IMG/VR virus record: IMGVR_UViG_3300032323_002862 | Coordinates: 1-23,575 of that record | DNA length: 23,575 nt | DNA from: a virus | Strand: one strand, 5' to 3' | Shown: in pieces, positions 5,639 through 21,529 of the stretch | Position numbering within the stretch: position 1 is the stretch's first letter | Layout of the letters: each line of letters opens with the position of its first letter | Notes under the pieces: model-generated | What the model was told of the DNA's origin: nothing | Databases searched by the model: none | What the model saw: the letters and a program-made list of their open reading frames with translations, nothing else | Translations under genes and position numbers: made by a program

Positions 5639-6970
5639 ATGCCGTACACCAACCCGACCTTCGCGGCCGTCCAGTCGATCCTCAAGATCAAGTACCCGGA
5701 TGGCGCCCTTCCGCAAGCCCTCTACAAGGACTTCCCGCTCCTCTCGCTCGTCAAGAAGACGACGAACTTCGACGGTGAGTTCAAGGTCGTGGCGCTCCAG
5801 AACGAGCGTCCGCAGGGCTCCTCGTCCGTGTTCGCGACCGCGCAGGCGGTGGCGACCAACGGCCTTCGCGGCGGCGGCGGTCAGTACAACCGGTTCCGTG
5901 TCTACCGTACGCGCCACTACGGCATCCTCCGTATGGACGGCGAGACCATGAAGGCGGCGGTCCGCACGAGCGGCGCGCTCGTCGACCTCTGGAACAACGA
6001 GACGGACGGCATCTCCAAGAACGAGATGGCGGACCTCGAGTTCCAGCTCTTCGGCGACGGCACTGGCGTCCGTGGCATCGTGTCGACGTACACGACCCCG
6101 AGCCCGACGCTCGCGACGGCGTTCCGCATCCAGCTCGCGACCCCGGCGGATGCGGTCTACTTCAACCTCGGTATGCGCCTCAACTTCTTCACGGCCCTCG
6201 GCGCGGCGAAGCCGGAGACGAACGCCAACTCGAACGGCCTCTACGTCGTGGCCATCGACCGCAAGGCCGGCACGGTCGACGTGACGGCGCTCGTGGCGGG
6301 CGTCGCGACAGTCCCGACCTTTGCCGTGGCGCCCGCGGCGACGGACGTCATCGCGCGCGCGGGTGACTACCTTGCCCCCGCGTCGGTCGGCACGGAGAGC
6401 AGCGGTTCGGCGAACGGCGTCATCACTGGCATTCAGGCGTGGATTCCGGCAACGGTCACCTCGACGGACTTCTGGGGTCTCAACCGTACGAGCGACCCGG
6501 TCCGTCTCGCGGGCCAGCGCCTCGTGGCGACCGGCCTCCCGATGAATGAGGCCCTCATGGAGGCCGAGGCTCTCGTCGCCATTCAGGGCGTCGGCAGCCC
6601 GGACACCATTGTGGTGAACCCGCTCGACCTCCAGAACCTCAAGAAGTCTCTTGGGACCGACATCGTCTACGACCGCGTCGCGTCGAACGTCGCGGGCGTC
6701 TCGTTCAAGGCCATCGAGTACGACGGCATGAACGGCCCGATGAAGATCATCTCGGACCCCTTCTGCCCGCGCAACAAGGCGTTCATGCTCCAGCTCTCCA
6801 GCTGGGAGCTCTCGACGCTCGGCCCGGCGCCGCAGATGCTCGACTACGACAACAACGACTTCCTCCGCGTTGCGTCGGACGACCAGTACGAGGTTCGCTT
6901 CGGTCACTACGGTCAGTTCCTCTGCAACAACCCCGGCGCAAACATCGTTCTCACGAACTTCGGTCTCTGA
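5639..6970 (+). CDS. Major capsid protein (HK97-like fold expected)
   Basis: This 443-residue protein follows the scaffold gene with AGGAG eight bases before the start. It builds the icosahedral shell. Typical major-capsid features are the N-terminal segment with LYKDFPLLSLVKKTTNFDGE, a central YRTRHYGILRMDGETMKAA region and an acidic helical stretch. The C-terminal half has DTIVVNPLDLQNLKKSLG, a VSFKAIEYDGMNGPMKI loop and an ending with YEVRFGHYGQFLCNNPGANI. Its length is close to P22 coat (about 430 residues). Codon use is strikingly uniform, almost all codons ending in C or G and more so than its neighbours, consistent with very high expression. There is no signal peptide or protease-processed prodomain obvious by eye. 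A 26-base gap carrying a strong ribosome binding site follows. Confidence 0.92.
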   Translation: MPYTNPTFAAVQSILKIKYPDGALPQALYKDFPLLSLVKKTTNFDGEFKVVALQNERPQGSSSVFATAQAVATNGLRGGGGQYNRFRVYRTRHYGILRMDGETMKAAVRTSGALVDLWNNETDGISKNEMADLEFQLFGDGTGVRGIVSTYTTPSPTLATAFRIQLATPADAVYFNLGMRLNFFTALGAAKPETNANSNGLYVVAIDRKAGTVDVTALVAGVATVPTFAVAPAATDVIARAGDYLAPASVGTESSGSANGVITGIQAWIPATVTSTDFWGLNRTSDPVRLAGQRLVATGLPMNEALMEAEALVAIQGVGSPDTIVVNPLDLQNLKKSLGTDIVYDRVASNVAGVSFKAIEYDGMNGPMKIISDPFCPRNKAFMLQLSSWELSTLGPAPQMLDYDNNDFLRVASDDQYEVRFGHYGQFLCNNPGANIVLTNFGL

Positions 6971-6996: not shown

Positions 6997-8034
6997 ATGG
7001 CACTGAACGCAACTTTCCACAGCCAGCTCTCCTCGAACCAGCCTGCTACGACGTTGATTTCTTCGACGTTCGTGGCGTCTGGCGACGGGCTGGGTAACGC
7101 GTTCGTGGTGGTTGACCCCACTTCGATCCAGCGCCTTGACATCACGGACGAAACCTACGGGTCCAGCGCCCTGTCGAACGGGCTTGTCGCTGCGAACATT
7201 CGGTCTACGCTCACTGATGGTCCCGCTACCGTCACCAACGGTGGCTCCGGCTACACCAATGGCGTGCACACCAACGTCGTCCTTACGAGCGGGGGTATTG
7301 CCACCGCTCGCGCGACCGTTACCGTTGCCGGCGGCGCGGTGACCTCTGTGCAGGTTACGGACGGCGGCGCCGAGTACGTGCTTTCCGGCACCGGCGTGGC
7401 AGTCTGCACGTTGTCTGGCGGAACGCCCGGCATCGGCGCTGGCTCTAGCGCGTCGGCCACCGTCGCGCTTACCACCGGTACTGGTACTGGGACTGTTCCT
7501 GCGCGGCTCTGGGTTGAAACGGGGGACTGCAAGGCCGCCCGTCTTGATCCAACCACTCCCGCGGAGCTTGGCACGGGGTTCCCGACCGCCGCGGGCGGGT
7601 TCCGCGTCTCGCTTCGTCAGGGGGCCAACCAGACCTGCATTGCGCAGGCCTATGCCGTTGGCACCGTCCCGACCGCGAACATGACGATCTCCCGCGTTAA
7701 GCTGGGGCTCTACAAGTTCGCGTTCAACGCGACGCGCGTTGGCGGCTCGTTGCCGCCCGTCGTCGTGGCGGACGCGTGCGTCGAGCTCAACCAGGGTCTC
7801 GGCGTCAGTACTGGCAACAGCTACAGCGCGACGGTGTTTGCTGGTATTGGCCTCGACGGCAAAAGCACGGCCAGTGGCACCTTTGCCATCAACGCGCTGG
7901 TATCGTACATTGATCCGGTTGACGGGTCCGTTTACGTACTGACGACGGACCACAACAATGAGCCTGCGGACCCGTACCCTGGCTCGAACGTCTCCTTCTC
8001 GCTCCTCATCCGCAATAGCTCGGCGGTGGTCTGA
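6997..8034 (+). CDS. Probable head decoration/structural protein with a Gly-rich beta module
   Basis: This 345-residue protein begins seven bases after AAAGGAG, one of the strongest ribosome binding sites here, so high expression is likely. Its place right after the major capsid gene and its beta-rich Ser/Thr/Gly/Val composition suggest a capsid decoration or similar abundant surface protein. Residues about 75-150 hold a glycine-rich module (NGGSGYTNGVHTNV, then VTVAGGAVTSVQVTDGG). A low-complexity Gly-Thr run (residues about 159-166) follows. The remainder looks like a separate beta domain ending with VSFSLLIRNSSAVV. Third codon positions are less GC-biased than in the adjacent capsid gene. 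A minor capsid or tail-attached role cannot be excluded. Confidence 0.6.
   Translation: MALNATFHSQLSSNQPATTLISSTFVASGDGLGNAFVVVDPTSIQRLDITDETYGSSALSNGLVAANIRSTLTDGPATVTNGGSGYTNGVHTNVVLTSGGIATARATVTVAGGAVTSVQVTDGGAEYVLSGTGVAVCTLSGGTPGIGAGSSASATVALTTGTGTGTVPARLWVETGDCKAARLDPTTPAELGTGFPTAAGGFRVSLRQGANQTCIAQAYAVGTVPTANMTISRVKLGLYKFAFNATRVGGSLPPVVVADACVELNQGLGVSTGNSYSATVFAGIGLDGKSTASGTFAINALVSYIDPVDGSVYVLTTDHNNEPADPYPGSNVSFSLLIRNSSAVV
7219..7446 (+). other. GxGYT beta module, copy in the decoration-like gene
   Basis: The encoded segment (about residues 75-150) reads GSGYTNGVH, a short gap, GG, then VTVAGGAVTSVQVTDGG. The same pattern occurs in the nozzle-like protein at about 11326-11520 and, more weakly, in the adaptor at about 8565-8748. 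Such Gly-Ser-Gly-Tyr-Thr segments are known as mobile beta modules in phage structural proteins. Confidence 0.55.
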
Positions 8035-8279
8035 TGAAGGGCAAAGGCGGCATGGCCCTCATGATCGCCATCGGCAAGAAGAAGCCGGGGATGGGCTCGG
8101 AGAAACCCTCCGGGCCCTCCCTGGGTTCCGAAGACGAAGGCGAGGGCATGGACATGGAGCTCGGCTCGATGCTCAAGGCCTACGAAGAGGCCAAGGCAAA
8201 GGGCAAGTGGGACAAGGCGGCGAAGCTCTTCAAGGAGGCCGTCTCGTCCTGTGGTGGTGACTACGAGGAAGAGGACTGA
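8034..8279 (+). CDS. Small acidic protein of unknown function
   Basis: The 81-residue frame starts at the ATG of a TGATG overlap with the previous stop. It has no strong Shine-Dalgarno sequence, which points to translational coupling. The N-terminus is Lys/Gly/Met-rich (KGKGGMALMIAIGKKKPGMG). The rest is a charged helix (GSMLKAYEEAKAKGKWDKAAKLFKEA) that resembles a single tetratricopeptide-type helix pair in character, then an acidic end. There is no membrane segment. The position between decoration-like and adaptor-like genes suggests an assembly or structural accessory. I do not recognise the family. Confidence 0.65.
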   Translation: MKGKGGMALMIAIGKKKPGMGSEKPSGPSLGSEDEGEGMDMELGSMLKAYEEAKAKGKWDKAAKLFKEAVSSCGGDYEEED

Positions 8280-8282
8280 TCG

Positions 8283-9287
8283 ATGGCATACTCGCGGACG
8301 CTTTCGGAACTCGAACTGGCCGTGCGGCGTGAAGCCGACATGGTGAACTCGCAGTTCGTGACGTCCGCCGAGGTGCGGTCGTACATCAACCAATCGTGGG
8401 CCGAACTCTACGACCGGATCGTACTGTTCGATCAGGAGTATCTCCTGCGCTACACCGACATTCCCGCGAGTGCGGCGAGTAGCGCAGGAGATTTCGACAT
8501 CCTCAACGACGGCAAGACGGGCCTCGTGCGCAGCGTGCTGTACGCCGCAGAGGTGCCGGGCCCGTTTGTGCTTGGCCGAGCGTACATCATCGTGCCGATG
8601 AATGGTGGGTATGCGACCCCCGCCTACGTCCGCATCGACAGCGTGTCGGGTGGAGTCGCGACGGCGTGGACGCTCATCTCGTCGGGGTCAGGCTATTTCA
8701 CGTCGCCGCCGGTGAGTGCAGACCAAGTGCAGGCAACGCTGGTTGATCAGAGCACGATGGTCACGGTGGGCAACGCAACCATCCACCTCGATTCCGATTT
8801 CTACAAGTGCAAGGGCGTGTGGCTCTCCGACGCCGATGCGGGTGGTACCACGTACTGGAACCCGCTCCGTCGCTTTCAATGGGAGCAGCAGAACATCCTG
8901 CGGCAGGCGGACGAGTACTTCCAGCAGGGCCTGACGTCGTTGCCCCTCTATCGCTTGTTCACGCTGAACGGCATGGAGAAGGTGTCCATCGCGCCGATGG
9001 TGTCTGGAACCTACCGCGTGTGGTACTACCCGGCTCCGTACAAGATGCTCGTCGACAACGACCGCATCGACGGCCGCGCGGGCTGGGACGAGTGGGTCAT
9101 CAAAGACTCCGCCATCAAGTGTCTCCTCAAGGAGGAGAGCATCGAGCAGGCGGCGGCGATCAAGGCTGTGCGCGACGAGCTCTTCTCCCGTTTCCAACTG
9201 CATGCCTCGGAGCGCGACGCGTCGCAGCCTGAGAAGATTCGCAACGTACATCTACTGAGCCGCCGTCAATTCCCCTGGGCGAGGTGA
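8283..9287 (+). CDS. Head-tail adaptor-like protein
   Basis: This 334-residue protein has GAGGA seven bases before its ATG. The N-terminal helical region (SELELAVRREADMVNSQFV, then EVRSYINQSWAELYDRI) and the C-terminal helical region ending ASERDASQPEKIRNV resemble portal-binding adaptor or gatekeeper proteins of short-tailed phages. These extend the channel below the portal and join the nozzle. A beta-rich insert (about residues 95-162) interrupts the segment before DFYKCKGVWL. It carries GGVATAWTLISSGSGYFTSPP and resembles the glycine-rich module of the decoration-like gene. The neighbourhood (portal and capsid before, nozzle after) fits a role in head closure. The assignment comes from pattern and context, not from a diagnostic motif. 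At 334 residues it is about twice the size of P22 gp4 (about 166), largely because of the insert and a C-terminal beta region. Confidence 0.62.
   Translation: MAYSRTLSELELAVRREADMVNSQFVTSAEVRSYINQSWAELYDRIVLFDQEYLLRYTDIPASAASSAGDFDILNDGKTGLVRSVLYAAEVPGPFVLGRAYIIVPMNGGYATPAYVRIDSVSGGVATAWTLISSGSGYFTSPPVSADQVQATLVDQSTMVTVGNATIHLDSDFYKCKGVWLSDADAGGTTYWNPLRRFQWEQQNILRQADEYFQQGLTSLPLYRLFTLNGMEKVSIAPMVSGTYRVWYYPAPYKMLVDNDRIDGRAGWDEWVIKDSAIKCLLKEESIEQAAAIKAVRDELFSRFQLHASERDASQPEKIRNVHLLSRRQFPWAR
8565..8748 (+). other. GxGY beta module, divergent copy inside the adaptor-like gene
   Basis: The encoded residues about 95-155 contain NGGYATPAYV, GGVATAWTLISSGSGYFTSP and a short beta run, and are likely an insertion in the helical adaptor. 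Similarity to the module in the neighbouring decoration-like gene is recognisable but weak, so this copy is tentative. Confidence 0.35.
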
Positions 9288-9290
9288 GTC

Positions 9291-9707
9291 ATGGCTGGAG
9301 CGAAGCCTGAACAGTTTACCCCGCGCCCGTCCGGGGATCTGACGATTGACAAGGCGCAGCGCGCGCTGTCGGAGGCGACCGACGCGATTCGGCAGCAGCC
9401 ACCGCCATCGCAGATGGTCACGAGCCTGTCCAAGGGAAAGCCTGGGCAAGGCGTTGTCTTCAAGCCGGGGCAGACGGTCGACATCCCGCACAACCTCGGT
9501 CGTGTGCCGAATGGCTTCAACATCGCTAAGGTCGTGACCAACACGAACCGGGCTGGCTCGGCGCCATCGGCCGTACCCAATCTGCAAGTGGTTGAAGTGC
9601 CGGGCCCAGTCGGGCAAAAGATCATGCGGCTTCGGTACATCCCACCGAAGGATACCGCCGGGAACGACATCCTCGACCCCGTGAGCCTGCACCTGGAGAT
9701 TCTCTGA
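9291..9707 (+). CDS. Small tail-associated protein of unknown function
   Basis: This 138-residue protein starts after GAGGTGA overlapping the previous stop. The first 45 residues are Pro/Gln-rich and probably helical or extended. The rest is beta-like and contains VFKPGQTVDIPHNLGRVPNGF. The HNLGRVPNGF element is a short motif often seen in phage tail or baseplate-proximal proteins. The gene ends in a TGATG overlap with the nozzle gene, so production is probably coupled to it. In P22-like phages a small gene near the nozzle often encodes a needle or plug, but no coiled-coil needle repeat is seen. The function therefore remains open. Confidence 0.65.
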   Translation: MAGAKPEQFTPRPSGDLTIDKAQRALSEATDAIRQQPPPSQMVTSLSKGKPGQGVVFKPGQTVDIPHNLGRVPNGFNIAKVVTNTNRAGSAPSAVPNLQVVEVPGPVGQKIMRLRYIPPKDTAGNDILDPVSLHLEIL

Positions 9708-12700
9708 TGGCGTCCGCAAACGAGCAGATCGTCAACGCCCCGTTGGTGGCCGGCATCGACGCGTACACGGACCCGAACAACCTAGCCCCTCCGGCGCTGC
9801 TTCGGGCGGACAACGTCACGATGGTCAACAAGAGCGCGCTGCAGACGCGCTATGGCTTCTCCATCGTCGAGGCGACGGCTGGCAACCCGGCCACTGCCTT
9901 CGATGGAGACGCGCGCCCCAGCGCCTCCGTGGAGGCCCTCGCGCGCTACGAGAACGCCGAAGGCGAGCGTACGCTCCTCGCGGCAGGGTCCAAGCTCTAC
10001 GAGTACGTCGGCAGCAGCGCGACCCGTGGGTGGCGTACGATCAACCGTCTGCCGGAGCACATCGGCACGCTGCACGCGGTCACCTCGTCGGGCGGCTCCG
10101 TGATCGAGGTCGACGCGACGCCTGACGACACGAACGCGCTCATCGTCACGGCCTGGGTCACCGGTCCTCGCACGGGGCAGGAGTTCTCCAGCGACCTTGC
10201 CTACGCGGGGCTCGTGGGTGGCGCGGCTGAATCGTACGGCAACATCGTCTACTACGCCGTGCAGCGCGCTGCCGATGGCACGTACGCGGTCCCTCCCACG
10301 GTGTTGCAAGCCAATAACAGTACGACGATCTGCAACCTGCGCATCACGAAGGTGCGGACCAGTGCGACCACGTACCGGGTGCTGATTGCGTGGCAGGAGG
10401 CGAACAGCGCGAAATACCGCGTGCTCAACACGAGCACGATGGCACTGTCGGCGGTGTACACGCTCGGCACGGTTGGCCAGCGGTGCTTTCGCTCGTTCGA
10501 CGTGACCGGCGCAGCGTGGGGCCCAATGGGCCAGCCAGCCATTGTGTGGGCGGCATGCTCGGCAGACCTCGGCGCGGGTGGACCGGCGCCTCTGTACGCG
10601 GAGCTCACGCTCATCAATGCCTCCACGGGAGCGCCTACGGTCAACGCGTCGATCGCCAACGTCACGGCGAGGACGCCTCCTGTCTCCGGGGACTGGTATG
10701 AGGCCTGGGGTCAGCGCGGAGTGGTCCTTGAGCAAGAGGCCAATGGCGTGTTTGCGCTGTCCGCGCGCGTCATCACGCAGCTCTACTCGCCGGCCGCTGT
10801 CCCGACCGGTAAGCTTGATGGGCAGCTCTGGACGGTGACGCTTGAGGCGGCGCCGGGTGTCCTGGTCCGCAGCGCGAACATCGCGCAGATCCCGTTCATT
10901 GGCTTCCAGAGCCGCGAGAACTTCGACAACGTGCTGAGCACGGTCGTCGGCACCACGTTCGTCAGCGGGAGCGTACAAATCACGCAGCCTCTCCAGACGC
11001 GCGTGATCGAGAGTAGCCGGCCGCAGCCAACCACGTTGATGCGCACGCCCGTGACCATCACCGGCGTGTTCCCGTCCGACCTGACGCGACAGACCTACAT
11101 CTCGACGCTCGGTACGTGGTTCGACATCAACACGGCAAGTGCGTACATCACGATCACGAACCTCGAGCCCAACATCGCGGGCTTTACGACGAACATCAAT
11201 GATTCGCTTGGCAGTCCGGGCGGGTTCCCGCAGCCGGTACACCTCTATCCACGAGATGCTCCGGTAGCGATCTCGACCAACTTCCCACAGATGATCACGC
11301 AGATCGACCTGACGGCGATCGCGGCGGGCCTGACCGGATTCACTCCGGGCGTGCATGCGTCGTGCCCCGTGCAGGTGGGAGGCGTGACGATTTGCCTTGT
11401 GACGGTGTACGTGAATGCCAGTGGCAACGTTACCGAGGTCGCCATTGAGGACGGCCTTCCGGGCATCGCTCCGCCGTCCGGACCTGCGAGCGCGATCGCT
11501 ATCACGAACATCGTGATCCCGCGCGCTGGCGCGTTTGTATGGCCCGTTGGCGGCCTTGCGTATGCGCACACGTTCAATCGCTTCAATGGCCTTGTGGCAA
11601 AGGATGCACCCGGCCGCGAGCAGCGTGTTCCGAACGCGCGCTTCGTGCAGGACGGGCTCATCGAGCAGTGCGTGCATCGCTGGGATGTGACGCGCGCAAA
11701 CGAGCGATGCGTGATTGCACTGTCCTCGGTCAGCGCAAACCTCATGACCACCCCAAACGGGGACGAGCCGTACGGCTCGGCAGAGCCGCACGACCAGGGA
11801 AACTTCTTCGAGATCTACCGCTGGGACGAGGGGACGGACGGCCTGATTGTCAACACAACGGGCTCGACGACGAACAACGTCATGGTCGCCGCCCTTGGTG
11901 GCCCGTGGCGCCTCGTCGGAGGCCTCCGGCGAGATGAGCTGGCCGGCACGCTCCACTGCGCTATCTGCCCCGGAGGCGATGAGTACCAGCGCAACACGTT
12001 CATGGTCCGTGTGGACCTACAGACGTCGTTCGGCATCCGCTTCCCAGCAACGGCCAAGGCAGACCCATCGGCTTCGGACTACATCTACAGCGGCAACCCG
12101 GGCGTGTTTGTTGAGTCGGCCAACATGATGCGCGTGACCTCCGCTCCGCTCAACGTGCCGTCGTCACGGGTGACGGCTGCCGGATTCGCGTGTGGCGCGC
12201 TCCGTGATGGAAGCTCCAGGGGTACGCAAGAGGTCTTCTACATCGAATACGAGAAGACCCCGCAGAACTGGCGGCGCATGCTGTCGCTGTGCGACTACAC
12301 CTTCATTAACGGCGGCGTGCTGTCCGCGTTCGACGGCGTGGGCGTCAACGAGGCGATGCCGCTCATGTGGCCGCAGAAGGACCTGACGTCCATCAACTGG
12401 CCCAAGATCAACCCGTCCGTGTACGTCGTGAGCGAACAGGGAACGCTCAACGGCGTCCAGGTGCAGTACCTCGCCAGCGCGTTTCACGACCGCACGAACA
12501 ACAACGACCGGACGTCGTACGGTCTCGTCAACATCGCGCGCCCGTTCTTCAAGTACGAAGCGGGCCTCAACGACAAGACGGGGTTCGGCCAGCTCTTCGG
12601 CTGCGGATGGGGCGCGATCCGTACGTTCTGGGGCGGGAACCCGGCCGAGAACTACGAGACGGTGTACGCCGACCCGCGCGTGTCGCAGTTCTCGTTCAGC

Positions 12701-14566
12701 AAGGCCAGCTACGCCAGCGGGCTCAACACGGCGAACGAAGAGAAGCAGCACTACTACGGCCGGTTTCAGACGGGCGTGCGCGACTACAGCGCGAGTAACT
12801 CGCTCTTCCCCGACGCATCGAGCGGCGGCAGACTGGGCGTTGCGGCGTGGCTCTTGTGGGCTCCGCGCTCCGCACGAGGCTGGGCGACGCCGAACCTCGA
12901 CACGTACAATGCGGCTGACGCGGGTGGCGACTTTCTCATGCGCTGGACGTATGAGTACATCGACGGCACAGGGCGCGTGTGCCGCTCGGCTCCCAGCAGC
13001 CCCATCAGCTACACGGTGTGCGCGGAGATTCTCGGCGCATGGTACAACCACGCCAGCTCCACGGCGACGCTGCCGTACACGGGCGGCCTCGTCACCCAGT
13101 TCAAGTGGGGCTTCTTTGCTCCGCGCCTCGAGCTGACGAACCGTCTTGAGACGGCAGCCGATGACGCGCGCCGCATGATGCTTCAGCCGTACACGACGGC
13201 GGAGCCCTACTCGACGGTCCTCTACCGCATGCCGCAGTCGAGCTTCGAGTCGTCTGCAGGCGCCTTCGTTGTCGACCGCAACATCACGCGTGGGGTGGTG
13301 CCGTTCGTCACGAACGCGTATGCGGCGAACGCCCCGCTTGGCTACGTCGTGAACAACTTCTCGCTCTTTGACGGGCCGCAGAAGGACTACAACGGCCTGC
13401 TTGCCGAGCCGATCCTCTACACGACCGGCAACATCCTCGACAACGTGCCGCCGCCTTCGGCGCGCGCCATGTGCATCCACCAGAACCGCATCGTCATGGG
13501 TGGCGCGGATGACCCGACCGTCATCTGGTTCTCGAAGGAGCTCAACGCGACGGAGGCCCCCGGCTTCAACGACGCGCTGACGTTCACGCTTGAGGAGGGC
13601 GGCTCGGTCACCGGGCTCGCAAGCCTCGAGAGCGCGCTCGTCATCTTGAAGCAGAACGACATCTTCGTGATCTCCGGGACGATGCCGGATTCCACGGGGT
13701 ACGCGCCGTCGCTGTCGACGCCGATCAAGCTGCCGCACGGTATCGGATGCCGAGACCATCGCTCGGTCATCGAGACGCCGGTTGGCATCTTCTTCCTGTC
13801 GGACCGCACCATCGAGCTTCTGAAGCCGGACCTCGGCATCGATCCGGTGGGCTTGCAGTTCAGCGGGATCAACGGTTTCGATGCGTCGACCATCACGTCG
13901 GTTGCACATAACGCGGAGACGCAAGAGGTCTACTTTACGTATTACTTCACCAGCGACCCCGACCGACGCAGTCAGGTGGCGGTCTTCAACTATGGCCTGC
14001 CAGGATGGATGCGCTGGCTGGTGAACCCGCTCGGTACGGGCTCACAGCTCGTGGCGGTGGTGAACAGCAAGCCGGAGCTCGTGGCATCGGGCACCGACAT
14101 GAGTGCAAACCCGCAGGCGCTGTTCTATCGACAGAACACGATCCATGCGGATTACCTGAAGAACCAAGCCTATGCGTTCATCCCGGTGACGTTGCAGACG
14201 GCGCCGTTCTCGATGCACAACATTCAGGGCTATGAGCGCGTGAAGCGCGCGTGCCTGCTGACTTCGCGCCCCGTCACCGGGTCGTACCCAACGGTCACCG
14301 TGACGCTCGCGGGCCCGGCGGCGCCGCCGCAGGTTGCAACGTGGACGCCGACCGAACTCGCGACGTTTATGGGCTCGGCGGCCACATGGAGCGGGCAGCT
14401 CGAGGTGCACGTCGCCGAGCAAAAGAACCGGGCGATGACCATCGCCTTCCAGACGACCGGCACCGGAGCGGCCAACAACGTCCCAATCCGTTTGGCGGGG
14501 TTCGCCTTCCGCATCGGCTTGAAGGCAGGCTTCAACAAGCGTACAACCGAAGCAGCGCGGCACTAG
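9707..14566 (+). CDS. Very large tail nozzle / stabilisation-like protein (beta-propeller)
   Basis: This 1619-residue protein is the largest here and has GGAG eight bases before the ATG. The N-terminus (PNNLAPPALLRADNVTMVNKS, then LQTRYGF) and C-terminal third look like the beta-propeller tail nozzle proteins of short-tailed phages (T7 gp12 and P22 gp10 types). Typical pieces are HQNRIVMGGADDPTVIWFSK (about residue 1260), GIFFLSDRTIELL, VFNYGLPGWMRWL (about 1427) and IQGYERVKRACLL (about 1506). The central thousand residues are mostly beta-rich and hold a Gly-rich module at about 541-604 and an FN3-like stretch (WTYEYIDGTGRVCRSAPSS). T7 gp12 has 794 residues and P22 gp10 about 470, so this protein carries a very large insertion. 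Its location between adaptor-like and ejection genes supports a tail role. Confidence 0.72.
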   Translation: MASANEQIVNAPLVAGIDAYTDPNNLAPPALLRADNVTMVNKSALQTRYGFSIVEATAGNPATAFDGDARPSASVEALARYENAEGERTLLAAGSKLYEYVGSSATRGWRTINRLPEHIGTLHAVTSSGGSVIEVDATPDDTNALIVTAWVTGPRTGQEFSSDLAYAGLVGGAAESYGNIVYYAVQRAADGTYAVPPTVLQANNSTTICNLRITKVRTSATTYRVLIAWQEANSAKYRVLNTSTMALSAVYTLGTVGQRCFRSFDVTGAAWGPMGQPAIVWAACSADLGAGGPAPLYAELTLINASTGAPTVNASIANVTARTPPVSGDWYEAWGQRGVVLEQEANGVFALSARVITQLYSPAAVPTGKLDGQLWTVTLEAAPGVLVRSANIAQIPFIGFQSRENFDNVLSTVVGTTFVSGSVQITQPLQTRVIESSRPQPTTLMRTPVTITGVFPSDLTRQTYISTLGTWFDINTASAYITITNLEPNIAGFTTNINDSLGSPGGFPQPVHLYPRDAPVAISTNFPQMITQIDLTAIAAGLTGFTPGVHASCPVQVGGVTICLVTVYVNASGNVTEVAIEDGLPGIAPPSGPASAIAITNIVIPRAGAFVWPVGGLAYAHTFNRFNGLVAKDAPGREQRVPNARFVQDGLIEQCVHRWDVTRANERCVIALSSVSANLMTTPNGDEPYGSAEPHDQGNFFEIYRWDEGTDGLIVNTTGSTTNNVMVAALGGPWRLVGGLRRDELAGTLHCAICPGGDEYQRNTFMVRVDLQTSFGIRFPATAKADPSASDYIYSGNPGVFVESANMMRVTSAPLNVPSSRVTAAGFACGALRDGSSRGTQEVFYIEYEKTPQNWRRMLSLCDYTFINGGVLSAFDGVGVNEAMPLMWPQKDLTSINWPKINPSVYVVSEQGTLNGVQVQYLASAFHDRTNNNDRTSYGLVNIARPFFKYEAGLNDKTGFGQLFGCGWGAIRTFWGGNPAENYETVYADPRVSQFSFSKASYASGLNTANEEKQHYYGRFQTGVRDYSASNSLFPDASSGGRLGVAAWLLWAPRSARGWATPNLDTYNAADAGGDFLMRWTYEYIDGTGRVCRSAPSSPISYTVCAEILGAWYNHASSTATLPYTGGLVTQFKWGFFAPRLELTNRLETAADDARRMMLQPYTTAEPYSTVLYRMPQSSFESSAGAFVVDRNITRGVVPFVTNAYAANAPLGYVVNNFSLFDGPQKDYNGLLAEPILYTTGNILDNVPPPSARAMCIHQNRIVMGGADDPTVIWFSKELNATEAPGFNDALTFTLEEGGSVTGLASLESALVILKQNDIFVISGTMPDSTGYAPSLSTPIKLPHGIGCRDHRSVIETPVGIFFLSDRTIELLKPDLGIDPVGLQFSGINGFDASTITSVAHNAETQEVYFTYYFTSDPDRRSQVAVFNYGLPGWMRWLVNPLGTGSQLVAVVNSKPELVASGTDMSANPQALFYRQNTIHADYLKNQAYAFIPVTLQTAPFSMHNIQGYERVKRACLLTSRPVTGSYPTVTVTLAGPAAPPQVATWTPTELATFMGSAATWSGQLEVHVAEQKNRAMTIAFQTTGTGAANNVPIRLAGFAFRIGLKAGFNKRTTEAARH
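11326..11520 (+). other. GxGYT beta module, copy in the nozzle-like gene
   Basis: Residues about 541-604 of the nozzle-like protein (GFTPGVHASCPV, then VTVYVNASGNVTEVAIEDG) follow the pattern of the decoration-like protein (GYTNGVHTNV, then VTVAGGAVTSVQVTDGG). The spacing is similar. The match was made by eye and no alignment score is available. Confidence 0.5.
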
Positions 14567-14573
14567 GAGAAAC

Positions 14574-15809
14574 ATGGCACTTCCGCTCGCAAGCATCCTC
14601 GGCTCGGTCGCCACCGGCGCGGCCACTCCGTTTCTGTCTCGTGTTCTTGGTGGCGCGTTCGGCGTCGACGAGGCCGAGCGAAAGCGCGAGCAGGCGCTTG
14701 CGGAGATCGACCGCGTCGCCCAGGGCGGCACGACACAGGGCCAAGCGGGCATCGCCTATGCTCGCGGGCGAGCCCTGTCGGACCTCGCCTCGATGGCGCA
14801 GCGCGGCACGGCTCAGCAGCAGGCGGGCCTTCAGCGTGCAGCCATGCAGCAGGGCGCCGACGTGCAGGCGCAGTACGCCTCGCAGCTCGCGGAGCTTCGG
14901 TCCCGTGAGCAGGAGCGCGCTCGCCAGATGGGCGGCTTCATGCGCGAGCGGGCCGCAGAGCAAGAGTCCAAGCGGCAGCGTGACGCGCTCGCCGGTGCAG
15001 TCGGCGGCGCCCTCGGTGGCCTCACCAAGATCTTCACTGGGACCGACGCAGCAGCGGACGCGGCAGCAACCGAAGCAGCGCGACTGCAGGAGTCGAGGAA
15101 GCTGCTTGGCGCTGCCGAGTTGACGGGCGACGACATCGCGCGTGAGCTCGGTATGACGGGCGCGGCTGCGGCAGCTCCCGCCGCTGCCGGCGTTGCGGCT
15201 GGTGCCGCTCCTGCGCAGGCGGCGGGTGCCGCTGCTGCTGCCCCGATGAACGAGATTGAGGCGGAGCTTGCCGCCCAGGACCGCACGCTTGCGTCGCTTG
15301 ACCCATCGCTGCGAGCGGCCATGGGCCCGAGCGAGGAGGACCAGCGTCAGGCTGGTCTCGCCGCGTTTGGCGGCGTGCCAGAACCTGCGTCGGTATCGGG
15401 CCGCAATCGTCTCGTGACGGGCAGCGGCATCGAGCGCGGCACGCGCATGGTTCCGGTGACGGCCAGCGAACAGGCGATGAAGCAGCAGGCGGATCAGGAG
15501 ACGATGAGCCGGCTTACGGCTGGCCGCCGCAACCTCGGAGAGTCGTTCTCGAACGTGCGCTCGGCCATCCCGCGCATCAGCTCCGGCGGAGGCCGCGACT
15601 TCGAGACGCAGGGGATTGAGTCCACGCTGGCCATTCGACCGAACGGGGCGGAGCCAAGTCAGGCGGAGATGGCGCCGCTTACGACGGCCGGATTCCCAAC
15701 GAGCCCCGCGATGGAGCAAGGTGAGGAACTTCGCAGGCAGCGCCAAGGCCGCATGCCGCGCCGACCCGCAATGAAGAAGATTCCCGGTGGCGGCGGCCTC
15801 GGACTCTGA
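14574..15809 (+). CDS. Internal virion / ejection protein
   Basis: This 411-residue protein starts after AGGAGA overlapping the nozzle stop. The N-terminus (MALPLASILGSVATGAATPFL) is weakly hydrophobic. It is followed by a Gln/Ala/Arg-rich helical region (residues about 33-135) with QRGTAQQQAGLQRAA and QLAELRSREQERARQ. A short hydrophobic segment (LAGAVGGALGGLTKIF, about 139-154) and an Ala/Pro linker (about 193-224) follow, and the rest is polar and low in structure. This composition is typical of DNA-ejection proteins packed in the head, such as P22 gp7/gp20/gp16 and T7 gp14-16, which form the channel through the cell envelope. It is the first of three such genes downstream of the nozzle. 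The identity of the individual counterpart cannot be set. Confidence 0.68.
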   Translation: MALPLASILGSVATGAATPFLSRVLGGAFGVDEAERKREQALAEIDRVAQGGTTQGQAGIAYARGRALSDLASMAQRGTAQQQAGLQRAAMQQGADVQAQYASQLAELRSREQERARQMGGFMRERAAEQESKRQRDALAGAVGGALGGLTKIFTGTDAAADAAATEAARLQESRKLLGAAELTGDDIARELGMTGAAAAAPAAAGVAAGAAPAQAAGAAAAAPMNEIEAELAAQDRTLASLDPSLRAAMGPSEEDQRQAGLAAFGGVPEPASVSGRNRLVTGSGIERGTRMVPVTASEQAMKQQADQETMSRLTAGRRNLGESFSNVRSAIPRISSGGGRDFETQGIESTLAIRPNGAEPSQAEMAPLTTAGFPTSPAMEQGEELRRQRQGRMPRRPAMKKIPGGGGLGL

Positions 15810-15821
15810 GAGGGTATTGCC

Positions 15822-17543
15822 ATGAGCGACTCTGAATTTGACAACACCCGCGCAGAAGAGCTGCTGAAGCAGGGCCTTGCGACTGGCTTTCGCACAACCG
15901 TCGCCACGGGTGTTCCTGGAGAAAAGAAGACCGTCGAGATGCCGGTCGCGGCTCCGGCGCTAATGAAGCCAGAGGTCAATCTCAACAAGGCCAAGGCCGT
16001 GGAGCCGGCGCCTGGGTTTGGTCAGCTTCGAGAGTCGACGCCCGGCCAGATGGGTGGCATGGGTGACGTGCTTCGGGCAGAGGCTCCGCCGCCCGTGGCG
16101 CCGCCGCCCCCGGCCGCCGGACCATACGACCAGCAGCTCCAGGCGCTCATGGCGCGGCTTGGCACCGCGCGAGGCGCTCCACGCGTCGCAATGAACGAGG
16201 ACATGCGTCGCGGCATCGCGGGCCAGCAGGAGGCCATGCGCGGCGTCATCGGTGCCATGGAGGCCGAGGGCCCTGGCAAGGAGGTCGCTCGCGCGGGCAT
16301 GCAGGTCGAGGGTGCCAAGTACATCCAGGGCCTTGAGCAGCTTCGCGGCCAGCAGAATCAGGACTTCGCGGCTCGTCGCCAGCAGATGGCACAGGACGAG
16401 GCTGCCCTCGCGCAGGCGCGCGAGCAGTACAACCCGTCTCGCGTGCTTCGAGACATCGGCAAGTCGCCGGTGAGTACGAGCGCGCTTACGTTTGCGGCTG
16501 GGCTCGTGGGTGCCCTCAAGGGGTCCGCTGGGCAGATTGGTCCGAACGAGATTCTTCAGGAGGTCGACAAGGCGGTCGAGCGCGACACCAAGATGCAGCT
16601 CCAGAACTACGAGATGCTGACGCAGGGCATCCAGACGGGCCGCTCGAACTTCGGCGACCTGATGAGGATGGGCGCAAGCCAGCAGGAAGCCCTGACCATG
16701 ACGGCCATGGCCTCGATGGATCAGCACAAGCGCGCGCTTGAGTTTGCCCAGCAGCGTGTGGCTGGCGCCAAGGAGAAGGGCGCGATCAAGGAAGCCATTG
16801 CCGGCCTCGACTTCCAGCGCGGCAAACTCCAGCTCGACATCGACATGAAGAACGCCGCGAACTACGTGGCCATGAACCGGGCGCGACAGGATGCGGCGAT
16901 CAAGCTGATGGAAATGCAGCAGAAGCTCTCTGGTATGGACCCGGAGACGCGTCAGAAAACGATGCAGTCGTACCTGTCCATCACGAACAACGACCGCTTT
17001 GGTAACGCAAAGGAAAGCGCCGATGCCGTTGGGCGCCTGCGACGCCTTCAGATGGAGATTCCCATCGAAAAGCAGAAGCAGGCGTGGGAGACGAGCGTGA
17101 AGAACCTGTTCAACAAGGCTCTCGGCGAGGCGGAGGCACGAGCATCCGACCGGGGTGACATCGTGCTTGGCGCGGTCGCGCGCGCATTCTCGTCGGGCCT
17201 TCGTGGAACGTACACGCCGGAGCAAATGAAGATGCTGAATCTTGCGCAGCAGCTCGTGAACACGGAGCTTAAGCGCATTAGCGGCGGCTCCGTCACGAGT
17301 GGCGAGGCTGTCCGCAACCTCCTGAGCCGCGACTGGTCGAGCTACGAGGGCTTCAAAAACTGGATGGACTCGCAAGAGCAGACCGCTAGATCGAACCTCC
17401 AGAGCTTCCAGGCGGCCGCCAATATCGACCCGAACGTGCGTGCGGTCATGGACGGCGTGCTCGTTGGCGCCCTTGGCCCGATGGACGATTACCAGAAGCA
17501 AACGCGAGACACGGCCGCGCTTGCGCAGGGGGCGACCAAGTGA
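15822..17543 (+). CDS. Internal virion / ejection protein
   Basis: This 573-residue protein starts seven bases after GAGAGGG. The N-terminus is Pro/Ala-rich and disordered (residues about 30-105). The rest is mostly Gln/Met/Ala-rich helix (RGIAGQQEAMRGVIGAMEAE, DIDMKNAANYVAMNRARQDA). The C-terminal part contains ELKRISGGSVTSGEAVRNLL (about 480-500), which resembles the R-SGAAV-EA element found near the C-termini of several phage ejection and tape-measure proteins. Together with its position between two similar genes, this supports a role in the ejected inner core. No lytic transglycosylase or peptidase motif is seen. It overlaps the next gene by four bases (GTGA). Confidence 0.68.
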   Translation: MSDSEFDNTRAEELLKQGLATGFRTTVATGVPGEKKTVEMPVAAPALMKPEVNLNKAKAVEPAPGFGQLRESTPGQMGGMGDVLRAEAPPPVAPPPPAAGPYDQQLQALMARLGTARGAPRVAMNEDMRRGIAGQQEAMRGVIGAMEAEGPGKEVARAGMQVEGAKYIQGLEQLRGQQNQDFAARRQQMAQDEAALAQAREQYNPSRVLRDIGKSPVSTSALTFAAGLVGALKGSAGQIGPNEILQEVDKAVERDTKMQLQNYEMLTQGIQTGRSNFGDLMRMGASQQEALTMTAMASMDQHKRALEFAQQRVAGAKEKGAIKEAIAGLDFQRGKLQLDIDMKNAANYVAMNRARQDAAIKLMEMQQKLSGMDPETRQKTMQSYLSITNNDRFGNAKESADAVGRLRRLQMEIPIEKQKQAWETSVKNLFNKALGEAEARASDRGDIVLGAVARAFSSGLRGTYTPEQMKMLNLAQQLVNTELKRISGGSVTSGEAVRNLLSRDWSSYEGFKNWMDSQEQTARSNLQSFQAAANIDPNVRAVMDGVLVGALGPMDDYQKQTRDTAALAQGATK

Positions 17544-20500
17544 AGACGGTTACGCTCGTTGATCCGCAAGGCACGAACGTCAGCGTCCCGCAGGAGCAGG
17601 TCGTCCCGCTTCTGCGCAGCGGATTCGGCGCGCGTCCTGGCCAAACCGTCACCCTTGCGGACGAGGCGAACACAGAGATCCCTATCGAGCGACTCGTCTC
17701 CGGCATCACCAAGGGTATGACGCCTCGGCTAGAGACGCAGCGTGGCGCCTTCGAGCGGGGCGCAGAAGAGCGTTTCGGTGGCGGAGCGGGTCTTGCTGCG
17801 GGCCTTGGCTACGGAGCCCTCCAAGGGGCAACCCTGGGCTTCGGCGGCAAGGCTCTCATGGAGACCGGCCTCGTGGCGCCGGAGACGCTTGCGCAGCTTG
17901 AGCAGGCTCGTGGTGGCGGTATGCTGTCGACCATCGGCGCTGGCGAGATGATCGGCCTCGGTGCGGCATCGGCGCTGACGGGTGGCGCGGCGGCTGGCGA
18001 AGCGGCTGCGGCTCGTACCCTCGGCCAAGCCACGCTGCGCTCGGCTGGTCGCGAAGCCCTCATCGGTGGCGCGTACGGCGCTGGCTCCGAGATCACGCAG
18101 GCAGGCATCGAACGCCGCGAGGCGCGTCCGCTCGAAGCTGGCGCGATGGGCGCTGCCTTTGGCGGTACGCTCGGCGCCGCCATTCCCGCGCTCAGCAAGG
18201 CCGCCTCGAAGGCCATGGGCAAGGCAGCGGCTGCGGAGGGCGCCACGCTCGCGGGCGAGGCCGTCCCCGGTGCGACCGACGCTGCAGAGCGCATGACGCT
18301 CAAGCGCCAGGAACTCGCCGATCAGGCGCGCACCAAGTCGGACGAAATCACCGGCATCGCAAACGCCTTCAACGACGTGCTCGACCGCACGCAGAAGGCC
18401 GGCTTCAAGACGCCTGAGGCGGGCATCGGCCGCATCGGCAAGGACCTGCGCCGCATCAGCGACACGCTGTCCAAGAAGGAAGGCGAGGCGCTTGCGCTCA
18501 AGGACCTGGAGACCTTCCAGAAGGACCTCGACAAGACGCTCGCCGGTGGGCTGAAGTCCAAGGCGAAGCTGGCCAACGAGGAAGCCGTCCTTCAGACGAC
18601 GCTCGCCGACATGCAGGCGGAGCTCGACGCCATGGGTACGGCAGGTCGCGCAGACCTCCGGGCCGCTGCTCTGGCAGACCGCATCCGTCAGACCGAGGGC
18701 GCGCTCGAGTACATGGCGAACGCCAAGAAGACGCTTGAGGACTTCGCCGCGCGCGGCGCCGACCTGCAGGGTCTTGCGCTCACCGAGGCGTCGCAGCTTC
18801 GGGCGCGCGGCAACGTCGAGCGTCGCATCGCGCGCCTTCGCTCGCAGCTTGAGGGCACGGGCGAGAAGGCCGTCGAGCTCGGTGGCGAGAGCGGCGCGGC
18901 GGCTCGCGCCCAGCGTGGCGCAGTCGAACGACAGGCCAACGTCGTGACGCAGGGCGAGGTCGAGCTCAGCCAAGCACTCAAGGACCTCGGCATCGAGAAC
19001 AAGTCCAAGAACCGCTACATGATCCTGCGTGCAGTGGAGAACGCCGAGGCGGACCCTGAAACGTTCCGCAGCCTCGTGCAGGACATCGTGAAGATGGAGC
19101 GCGGCTTCAAGGCCGAGCCCGGCTACACGAAGCGCAACGCCAGCATCTTTGCGGAGGTCTTCAAGCATCCGCAGGTTCTGGAGAAGCTCTCGCCCGAGAA
19201 CGCAGCGTATGTTCGTGCGGTGGCGCAGGTTGCCCCGGACACGAACCTCCTGCGCTCTGCCGCGAAGGGCGGTCGCGCCATTCGAATCCCCGGGATCGCG
19301 GCCGAGCTTGAGGGCGTCGAGGGCATCATCGGGGCCGACCGGTACAATCAGATCCGTCAGATGGCCGTCGAGGACATGGTTCGTCCTGAGGTCCAGAACG
19401 CGGCGCTCTCCGATGCGATGACGCTTCGGGAGAAGTACCGCTATGTCCCCAAGGGCGGCGCGGCACCAGCCGAGGCAGCCGTCGAGACCGTCGCAGAGGC
19501 CGCTCCTGGCGAGGGCGTGACCGCGACGAACATCACGAGTCGCAGCCCTGGCGAGACCATCAAGCTGCGCGAGTCGTTGACCAGCGCAGAGAAGACGCTC
19601 GCGGACCTCGAGAAGGAGCTTCTGAATACGCAGGCGCAGAAGCAGTCGCTCGTTCAGCAGCGGCAAGCGTTGGCCAAGGAGGCGCGCGGTGCGCGTACCG
19701 CCGAGCGCGAGCGCCGTCTCATCGAGCGCGAACGCATGCTGTGGGAGAAGGCCGCCGACACCGACGCGCTGGAGCGGGCGCTTCAGGATGCGAAGGCGGG
19801 CGTCACCGACCTGCGTAACCAAGTACGCACGAACCGCCTCATCAGCACAGCCGAGCGAGCGGAGCAGCGCACCCTTGAGCAGAACGCTCGTCAGGTGCTC
19901 GCGGACGCCAAGCGCGCCGCCAAGACCGGCAAGCTCGAATCCGAGATCACGGCGCTCCAGCGCGAGGCTGGCGAGAAGATCAAGCTCAAGACGGACCTCG
20001 AGCTCCTGCGCGACGAGCACGTCGGCGTGGGCGCCCGCCTCGACGAGCTCACCAAGCTCGGCGACCGCAACCTGCTCAAGGCCAGCGCGCAGCAGGGGCG
20101 CATCGTCCCGGTCTCGGAGCAGCAGATCTTCGACCGCTCGATGAAGGCGTTCCTGTCCTCGCCTGAGGGTAAAGAGCTTGCGCGGGAATTGGCGAAGCAG
20201 TCGAAGTCCTTCGCCCAAAAGATGCTCGAACCCGACAACCTGCTCGCGGCTCTCAGCGCCGGCACGACCGGAATGGGTGTCATGGGTGGCAGCCTTCCGA
20301 CGATGCTCATCGGCATCGGCATGGCAGCCATGGGCGGCAAGCGCGGCCTCTACAAGGCAGCCGCTACGTTCATGAACCCGGTACGCGCGTGGACCGCCGT
20401 AGGCGCATCCATCGGCGCCCTGGAGCGCCTGACGCCACGCGTCTCGCGCACGGCTGCGACCACGAGCAGCTACACGTTCCCGGTCAAGGAGGCGAACGAC

Positions 20501-21070
20501 TTCGTGGACTCGATCCTCGCCGACCGTGAGGCGGCTGAGAACGCCTTCCGCAAGATGGCGCAGAGCGGCACCATCGAGGCGAAGAACCTGGAAGCTGCCA
20601 AGAGCCGCTTCGACGCGGCGGTCGACTACCTCGAGCGCAAACGCCCGATGACCAAGAACGGCGCCGACGCGCAGGACTTCGCGCGTGCCGTGGCCGTCGT
20701 TCGCAATCCTGACCTCTTGGCCAAATTTATCAAAGAGGGTACCCTGAGGCAGCAGGACGTCGACGTGCTGCAGCGTATCTCACCTGAGAGTTACGCCTCT
20801 CTCAAGGGAGCGGTCGAGCTCCTGCACCAGCAGAGGCCCGCCGTCGTCGCTAACCTAGCGCCACTCTTCAAGATCATGACCAAGAGCAAGAGCCTCATGC
20901 GCACGACCATCCCGCTGATGATGCTTCAGCAGATGTCTGGCGCGTCGACGCCTGCGCAGCAGGGCATGACCCCGAAGAGCGAGACCGCTGCAGCTCGAGG
21001 CCGCGCAGCGTCGGCAGCCAATTCGCCGACCGCGAAGAACGTGTCGAACGACACGAGCCTCACCTACTGA
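17540..21070 (+). CDS. Large internal virion / ejection protein
   Basis: This 1176-residue protein begins with GTG, overlapping the previous stop and preceded by a G-rich AGGGGG at about seven bases. After a small N-terminal domain (VDPQGTNVSVPQEQV), residues about 79-235 are Gly/Ala-rich with several hydrophobic runs (GAGLAAGLGYGALQGATLGFG, AAFGGTLGAAIPAL). Long coiled coils occupy about 245-500 and 678-847. A membrane-like segment (GGSLPTMLIGIGMAAMGG, about 914-931) precedes helical and Lys/Arg-rich C-terminal parts. Such proteins leave the capsid ahead of the DNA and span the host envelope. Size and position match the largest T7 and P22 ejection proteins. Unlike T7 gp16, I see no N-terminal lytic-transglycosylase domain. 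The function is inferred from composition and order. Confidence 0.7.
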   Translation: MKTVTLVDPQGTNVSVPQEQVVPLLRSGFGARPGQTVTLADEANTEIPIERLVSGITKGMTPRLETQRGAFERGAEERFGGGAGLAAGLGYGALQGATLGFGGKALMETGLVAPETLAQLEQARGGGMLSTIGAGEMIGLGAASALTGGAAAGEAAAARTLGQATLRSAGREALIGGAYGAGSEITQAGIERREARPLEAGAMGAAFGGTLGAAIPALSKAASKAMGKAAAAEGATLAGEAVPGATDAAERMTLKRQELADQARTKSDEITGIANAFNDVLDRTQKAGFKTPEAGIGRIGKDLRRISDTLSKKEGEALALKDLETFQKDLDKTLAGGLKSKAKLANEEAVLQTTLADMQAELDAMGTAGRADLRAAALADRIRQTEGALEYMANAKKTLEDFAARGADLQGLALTEASQLRARGNVERRIARLRSQLEGTGEKAVELGGESGAAARAQRGAVERQANVVTQGEVELSQALKDLGIENKSKNRYMILRAVENAEADPETFRSLVQDIVKMERGFKAEPGYTKRNASIFAEVFKHPQVLEKLSPENAAYVRAVAQVAPDTNLLRSAAKGGRAIRIPGIAAELEGVEGIIGADRYNQIRQMAVEDMVRPEVQNAALSDAMTLREKYRYVPKGGAAPAEAAVETVAEAAPGEGVTATNITSRSPGETIKLRESLTSAEKTLADLEKELLNTQAQKQSLVQQRQALAKEARGARTAERERRLIERERMLWEKAADTDALERALQDAKAGVTDLRNQVRTNRLISTAERAEQRTLEQNARQVLADAKRAAKTGKLESEITALQREAGEKIKLKTDLELLRDEHVGVGARLDELTKLGDRNLLKASAQQGRIVPVSEQQIFDRSMKAFLSSPEGKELARELAKQSKSFAQKMLEPDNLLAALSAGTTGMGVMGGSLPTMLIGIGMAAMGGKRGLYKAAATFMNPVRAWTAVGASIGALERLTPRVSRTAATTSSYTFPVKEANDFVDSILADREAAENAFRKMAQSGTIEAKNLEAAKSRFDAAVDYLERKRPMTKNGADAQDFARAVAVVRNPDLLAKFIKEGTLRQQDVDVLQRISPESYASLKGAVELLHQQRPAVVANLAPLFKIMTKSKSLMRTTIPLMMLQQMSGASTPAQQGMTPKSETAAARGRAASAANSPTAKNVSNDTSLTY

Positions 21071-21116: not shown

Positions 21117-21527
21117 ATGACTCGAATCGGAACGGGGCTCAGCTCCAAAACTCGCACGTACTCGGTGGTCCCCACCGATACGAACTTCCACCAGCTTGAG
21201 TCTCCGATTCCGCAGGGGAGTCAGGTGGTCAACTCGGCGACGGGCGTACCGATCGGTACTCCGGTCAACCTCGCGACGGGTCCGGTGCGCACGCTCGACA
21301 GCAGCTACGTGCAGGGCATCACGATCTACAACGACACCACGACGGTCGGCGAGTTCCTGTTCGTGGCTGGCGTGGAGTACGACGGCCAGACCGCCGCTGC
21401 CGCTGGCCCGACCGCGTTCAAGGTCATGCCTGGCGAGTCCATCGCCATCGACTGCCGTGACGGCTCGGGCATCGCCATCGCGTTCTCTTCCACCGCCGGC
21501 CGCTCGGCTCGCGTCATCGGGAACTGA
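21117..21527 (+). CDS. Small beta-rich protein upstream of the tail fibre
   Basis: This 136-residue protein starts six bases after AAGGAGA, a strong ribosome binding site. Its sequence is beta-rich (RTYSVVPTDTNFHQLE, GITIYNDTTTVGEFLFVAGVEYDG, then GESIAIDCRDGSGIAIAFSS) with no helix, signal or membrane segment. It lies two bases upstream of the fibre gene, so the two are probably co-translated. Its layout (N-terminal strands, a Thr-rich centre and a conserved-looking C-terminal sandwich) fits a small virion or fibre-attachment protein. I cannot name its family. Confidence 0.65.
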   Translation: MTRIGTGLSSKTRTYSVVPTDTNFHQLESPIPQGSQVVNSATGVPIGTPVNLATGPVRTLDSSYVQGITIYNDTTTVGEFLFVAGVEYDGQTAAAAGPTAFKVMPGESIAIDCRDGSGIAIAFSSTAGRSARVIGN

Positions 21528-21529
21528 CC

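Follow-up and report, generated by a model that had tools for sequence, protein, structure and literature searches.

A glycine-rich beta segment appears to recur in three neighbouring virion genes of an uncultured phage, raising the questions of whether the three segments are copies of one module, how such a module came to occupy three sites, and what it does on the particle. The window, meaning the whole stretch of 23,575 nucleotides analysed here, is a 23.6-kb virus record that carries the structural block of a short-tailed phage, with genes in the order terminase, portal, scaffold, capsid, decoration-slot gene, 81-aa gene, adaptor, 138-aa gene (g138), nozzle-like gene, three large genes without assigned function, and fibre genes. 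The capsid gene matches PF17236 SU10_MCP (E 6.5e-9), and the nozzle-like protein weakly resembles PHROG families of virion proteins (phrog_3287, E 4.6e-7). The three large proteins (411, 573, and 1176 aa; 14574-21067) have no Pfam match at E 0.1, and the 1176-aa protein has no PHROG match either. Positions 21117-23290 hold g136 together with a gene for a tail fibre (PHROG match, E 1.9e-13), with an N-terminal part that is better conserved among relatives than the rest. Relatives were collected through the adaptor and comprise 41 loci, or 46 with five more found by means of the adaptor alignment; one of the 41 loci (L003) is identical to the window in all genes compared, and no adaptor relatives were found in bacterial genomes. 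The carriers and their modules are listed in Table 1.

Table 1. Carrier genes and module copies in the window
Feature	Position	Strand	Details
Decoration-slot gene	6997..8034	+	345 aa; ORF; between major capsid gene and 81-aa gene
Head-tail adaptor ring gene	8283..9287	+	334 aa; PF24175 SU10_adaptor, 27.4 bits (cut-off 27)
Nozzle-like tail gene	9707..14566	+	1619 aa; ORF; homologues at same position in relatives
Module, decoration-slot protein	7216..7470	+	residues ~74-158; six predicted strands
Module, adaptor (diverged)	8526..8789	+	residues 82-169; between conserved flanks DFDILNDGKTG and DSDFYKCKGVW
Module, nozzle-like protein	11318..11464 (approx.)	+	residues ~538-586; tblastn E 1.7e-4, profile E 7e-9

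The preliminary description reported one module at all three sites. For the decoration-slot and nozzle copies this is borne out directly, as tblastn, shuffles, and profile-profile comparison all agree. The decoration-slot motif GYTNGVH...GG...VTVAGGAVTSVQVTDG aligns with the nozzle motif GFTPGVH...GG...VTVYVNASGNVTEVAIEDG once a single one-residue gap is allowed. When positions 7219-7446 are searched against the whole window by tblastn, only the query itself and the nozzle segment are returned, and the Smith-Waterman score of the pair is 75, with a maximum of 69 among 5000 shuffles. The profile match was obtained by hhalign from the nozzle set and a decoration-slot family that consists of four sequences only (effective number 1.4).

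The adaptor copy, described earlier as a weaker one at 8565-8748, does belong to the family, with a wider span of approximately 8526-8789; within this genome alone it is weak or marginal. The score between the decoration-slot and adaptor copies of the window is reached by one of 5000 shuffles, and the adaptor and nozzle copies of the window show no significance in the shuffle test. The relatives provide the connection. Their adaptor site holds a textbook copy of the module, such as GGTGYVDGAATLVQGSNATATVTLTTSAGVITAITLTGAGNGYTS in L004, and the profile of adaptor relatives matches the decoration-slot module at an hhalign E of 2e-8. The core of the window's adaptor module scores 21.8 bits against the core profile of the relatives (shuffled maximum, 12.6), which identifies the window copy, by profile, as a diverged member that can be linked only through the relatives. 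Across all ORFs of the loci, the nozzle-site and adaptor-site HMMs find the decoration-slot module of the window at 9.9e-5 and 7.7e-5, respectively. The adaptor and nozzle profiles do not match one another significantly (E 0.005 to 0.02) and are joined only through the decoration-slot module. On sequence grounds, the three segments are homologous and form one family of small (~80-90 aa), six-stranded, Gly/Thr/Val-rich beta modules.

Ig-like domains are scattered over the virion proteins of phages. A search of the adaptor profile against the PDB matched the tailspike Dpo31 (E 0.0041), and a module-only profile of adaptor and decoration-slot copies matched Dpo31 residues 446-505 (E 3.4e-4), which lie within the domain D3*. 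Dpo31 is the trimeric polysaccharide-degrading (depolymerase) spike of the marine podovirus Carin-1, and D3*, comprising residues 434-536, is a solved Ig-like domain that protrudes from it (PDB 28lx, 28mg, 8ck1; PMC13317679). By sequence profile the modules belong to a D3*-type family, with a match that covers ~60 of the 103 residues of D3*. The adaptor HMM scores D3* at 30 bits (shuffled maximum, 13), whereas the decoration-slot and nozzle profiles alone match it only weakly. D3* and the window module match largely the same PHROGs, and these matches fall inside the tail-fibre, virion, baseplate-wedge, and head-closure Hc2 families of other phages; the D3* stretch used in the shuffle and PHROG checks came from HMMER output. 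No Pfam family covers the module, and the Pfam Ig-like models match neither 13 module members with an E limit of 1 nor the whole proteins with a limit of 10. In the phage collection, the decoration-slot protein and its module have no tblastn matches, and the adaptor-site module query finds 134 records, with weak E-values among the matches listed.

AF2 models were made for the adaptor and the decoration-slot protein. The adaptor model (pLDDT 75, pTM 0.69) aligns with the adaptor rings of SU10 (Z 11.0), GP4 (Z 11.2), and cyanophage A4 (Z 12.0), within a range of 9.9 to 12 that includes crAss001, and the gene is an SU10-type adaptor ring protein both by profile (PF24175) and by fold. The matched PDB adaptor chains have ~195-245 residues; judging from size and alignment, the ~100 additional residues of the window adaptor would be the Dpo31-type module, which is too big for the shorter chains. 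In the model, the strands of the module (80-88, 100-105, 114-122, 125-133, 148-155, 161-171, and a short one at 136-138) sit among beta strands after the N-terminal helices. On this model the module does not seem to interrupt a helical fold, contrary to what had been proposed; it is placed between beta strands of that region and not in a helix bundle. This part of the model probably corresponds to the region of the long-tail-fibre dock domain, which is present in the adaptors of SU10, T7, and KP32 (PMC9509320). The decoration-slot model is confident only in the module and a few short stretches, its rows in the viral structure library are weak, and its module strands (75-81, 89-98, 102-111, 114-122, 133-143, 153-158) follow the same order as those of the adaptor model. 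For neither model did Foldseek or VIA-align return a structure, D3* included, that matched the module convincingly, an absence that proves nothing, and chain 8ck1_A aligned to a part other than the module. Because of this, the Ig-like fold predicted for the modules of this phage rests on sequence. Rows for eIF2-gamma domain III and the F1 beta-barrel (Z 4 to 6) were treated as a common arrangement.

Variation at the adaptor site is concentrated in the module, with a median identity over all pairs of 30% in the module and 84% and 71% in its flanks. Between the window and L004/L005, DNA identity is ~93-100% (one bin at 83%) up to position 8490, a stretch that includes the 81-aa gene and 60 codons at the adaptor start, drops to ~33-64% (about 45%) across the module core, and is mostly 75-95% beyond it. 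A second pair, L034 and L006, is 98-100% identical from terminase through portal and scaffold into the first part of the capsid gene (L034 3495 to ~8194), 62-89% in the remaining capsid gene, and 96-100% through the decoration slot, the 81-aa gene, and the adaptor start (L034 9357-10137). Identity then falls to 35-85% over L034 10137-10857, returns to 95-100% over 10857-11818, and is lower further on in the nozzle gene. The adaptor segment of L034 is 95-100% identical to that of L016 (10166-10886) and 91-100% identical to that of L033 (from 10170), each with one 60-base bin at 83%, and its nozzle stretch from ~11831 is 100% identical to L016; L034, a single contig, could be a chimeric metagenome assembly. 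These mosaic identity patterns suggest that the module segment has been exchanged between genomes at the adaptor site, and the replacement, which involves indels, does not look like the work of a diversity-generating retroelement. Partial Mantel tests find no significant coupling of the adaptor-module type to the nozzle, g138, portal, or capsid. A coupling of adaptor module and nozzle was considered from L034, which has both from an L016/L033-like source and keeps g138 between them, and was rejected on partial rank correlations of -0.04 to 0.14 (p 0.09 to 0.72). Separately, residues ~140-270 of the major capsid protein (gene region 5639-6970 of the window) also vary between otherwise near-identical genomes (window and L005; L034 and L006). 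The adaptors of L036-L040 (e.g. L036:8570-10516) have 649 aa, with ~315 extra residues directly after the module; this extra domain, possibly a beta-propeller, is matched weakly, under the Pfam cut-offs, by DUF6923 (E 0.0012) and SGL (E 0.061).

The reading favoured here, at a probability of roughly two in three, is that a D3*-family module is mounted on three outward-facing virion proteins as a probable surface-contact element, with adaptor versions that are partly exchanged between genomes through the flanks. Synteny and fold suggest that the carriers, namely the decoration-slot protein, the beta region of the adaptor, and the nozzle, face outward, and the modules would then be exposed on the particle. 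There the module may act as a surface contact, either by weak binding of host or environmental glycans or by docking other virion parts, and adaptor-site variation would stem, at least in part, from genomes trading the module segment through conserved flanks. The exchanged versions at the neck ring of close relatives suggest a replaceable surface part, and the module is most likely an Ig-like surface element that brings diversity to virion proteins facing outward. By analogy, binding of sugars or polysaccharides is plausible; adhesion to polysaccharides, as raised in the preliminary description, would be compatible with the solved relative D3* being part of a polysaccharide-degrading spike, although the authors describe D3* as only distantly similar to Ig-like domains that bind sugars (PMC13317679).

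It is possible, if rather doubtful, that the module is instead a structural spacer or assembly domain without a ligand outside the virion. The tail of SU10 is wrapped and stabilised by four Ig-like domains of the nozzle, which are inserted in a beta-propeller and touch each other (PMC9509320), and the presence of the nozzle module in all aligned relatives is what would be expected of a structural part. The lack of depolymerase activity in D3* alone (PMC13317679) also fits such a role. A buried contact is nevertheless disfavoured by an adaptor module that is far more variable than its flanks and swapped between genomes, and the lack of significant coupling to nozzle, g138, and capsid in the partial Mantel tests weighs in the same direction. 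An unlikely explanation of that variability is that a tail fibre docks at the adaptor module, which would change along with the fibre. The modelled placement in the dock region would suit this explanation, yet the only fibre-like genes of the window (21117-23287) keep close N-termini in phages with different adaptor-module types, which argues weakly against it: g136 is 82-85% identical among these phages, and the fibre is 83% identical over residues 1-113 (L013 record) and 62% over residues 1-157 (L006 record).

Convergence of low-complexity Gly/Thr/Val-rich beta sequence without common origin is very unlikely. The composition is simple, the comparisons between D3* and the adaptor depend on Gly-Tyr motifs, and a Fib stretch scored 56 against the decoration-slot module, where the adaptor scored 55; however, shuffling columns or residues, which preserves composition, lowers the scores, and the conserved motifs keep their order. 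Real scores with the decoration-slot module are 47 to 51, whereas column shuffling, outliers aside, yields no more than 17.6 (nozzle set and set of adaptor relatives) or 29.2 (adaptor set that includes the window). One decoration-slot to nozzle shuffle gave an outlier at 133, which a rerun showed to be a 5-column end artefact; two outliers at ~132 occurred in the adaptor-nozzle shuffles, a comparison treated as not significant in any case. In profile comparisons with 125 chunks of the window proteome, the other two sites come out first for each module profile, ahead of the remaining Gly-rich regions.

The distribution of the module differs between the sites. Related phages, which the preliminary description proposed to check for a lack of the insert in the adaptor and nozzle genes, do carry it, with the module present in all 46 related adaptors found and in all 23 aligned related nozzles (24 rows with the window). 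Presence varies only at the decoration slot, where module-bearing and bare proteins alternate. A module-bearing protein is found there only in the window, L010, L012, and L020, a patchy set, with the homologues in the three relatives at 55-57% identity. In the other relatives the slot is mostly occupied by a bare protein of ~130-150 aa, which shares its N-terminal 31 residues with the decoration-slot protein of the window (hhalign E 5e-5); in some relatives the protein is longer, and a few of these longer proteins have a different small motif. SU10 has a gene for an Ig-like protein (gp10) between its capsid and adaptor genes (PMC9509320). Another small motif, T(D/N)FT..GAS.N..G..F.AT, recurs in decoration-slot proteins and is also nested in the nozzle module; its carriers are L011, L015, and L017 (decoration slot or upstream ORF), L022 and L042, and, by eye, L030, L031, L032, and L041.

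When all copies are placed in one tree, they fall into one clade per site across genomes, and each site appears to have its own module lineage, with no recent copying within a genome. The shared module of the first interpretation is thus retained and its proposed spread by intragenomic recombination is not: although one genome carries three copies, recent copying into three genes is extremely improbable because the copies cluster by site, same-genome pairs do not score systematically higher than cross-genome pairs, no direct repeats join the three sites in the DNA (a single 18-base match at 83% between the nozzle copy and a part of the decoration gene that lies outside the module is at chance level), and the nozzle and adaptor sites are filled throughout the relatives.

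The D3*-family assignment joins scattered unnamed virion segments, in decoration-slot, adaptor, and nozzle proteins and in the PHROG baseplate-wedge, head-closure, and fibre families, to one module with a solved representative. The findings also indicate that a protein of the neck ring, generally seen as conserved, can harbour a domain under rapid exchange, and they offer a testable route by which uncultured phages may vary their surface without changing their tail fibres. More tentatively, the adaptor ring could carry a dedicated specificity cassette, in which its outward domain is swapped between near-identical genomes via conserved flanks, L036-L040 add a domain of ~315 aa, and neck and tail fibres together set host or surface contact.

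Dpo31 D3* shares with the window modules the ~60-residue profile match and largely the same PHROG neighbours; like D3*, the window modules would be inserted domains of virion proteins, which at the adaptor fits the size difference from SU10-type adaptors. In contrast, its carrier is a trimeric depolymerase spike while those in the window are adaptor, nozzle, and decoration-slot proteins, and the C-terminal part of D3* aligns poorly with the window modules. The adaptors of SU10, T7, and KP32 are the same ring protein, of which the window version is ~100 residues longer, with its module in the region after the N-terminal helices. Single-sequence hhalign of the carriers against SU10 gp10, gp11, and gp17 gave no similarity. 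With gp10 and the Ig-like nozzle domains of SU10 (PMC9509320) as examples, capsid, neck, and tail proteins of other phages likewise carry additional small beta domains.
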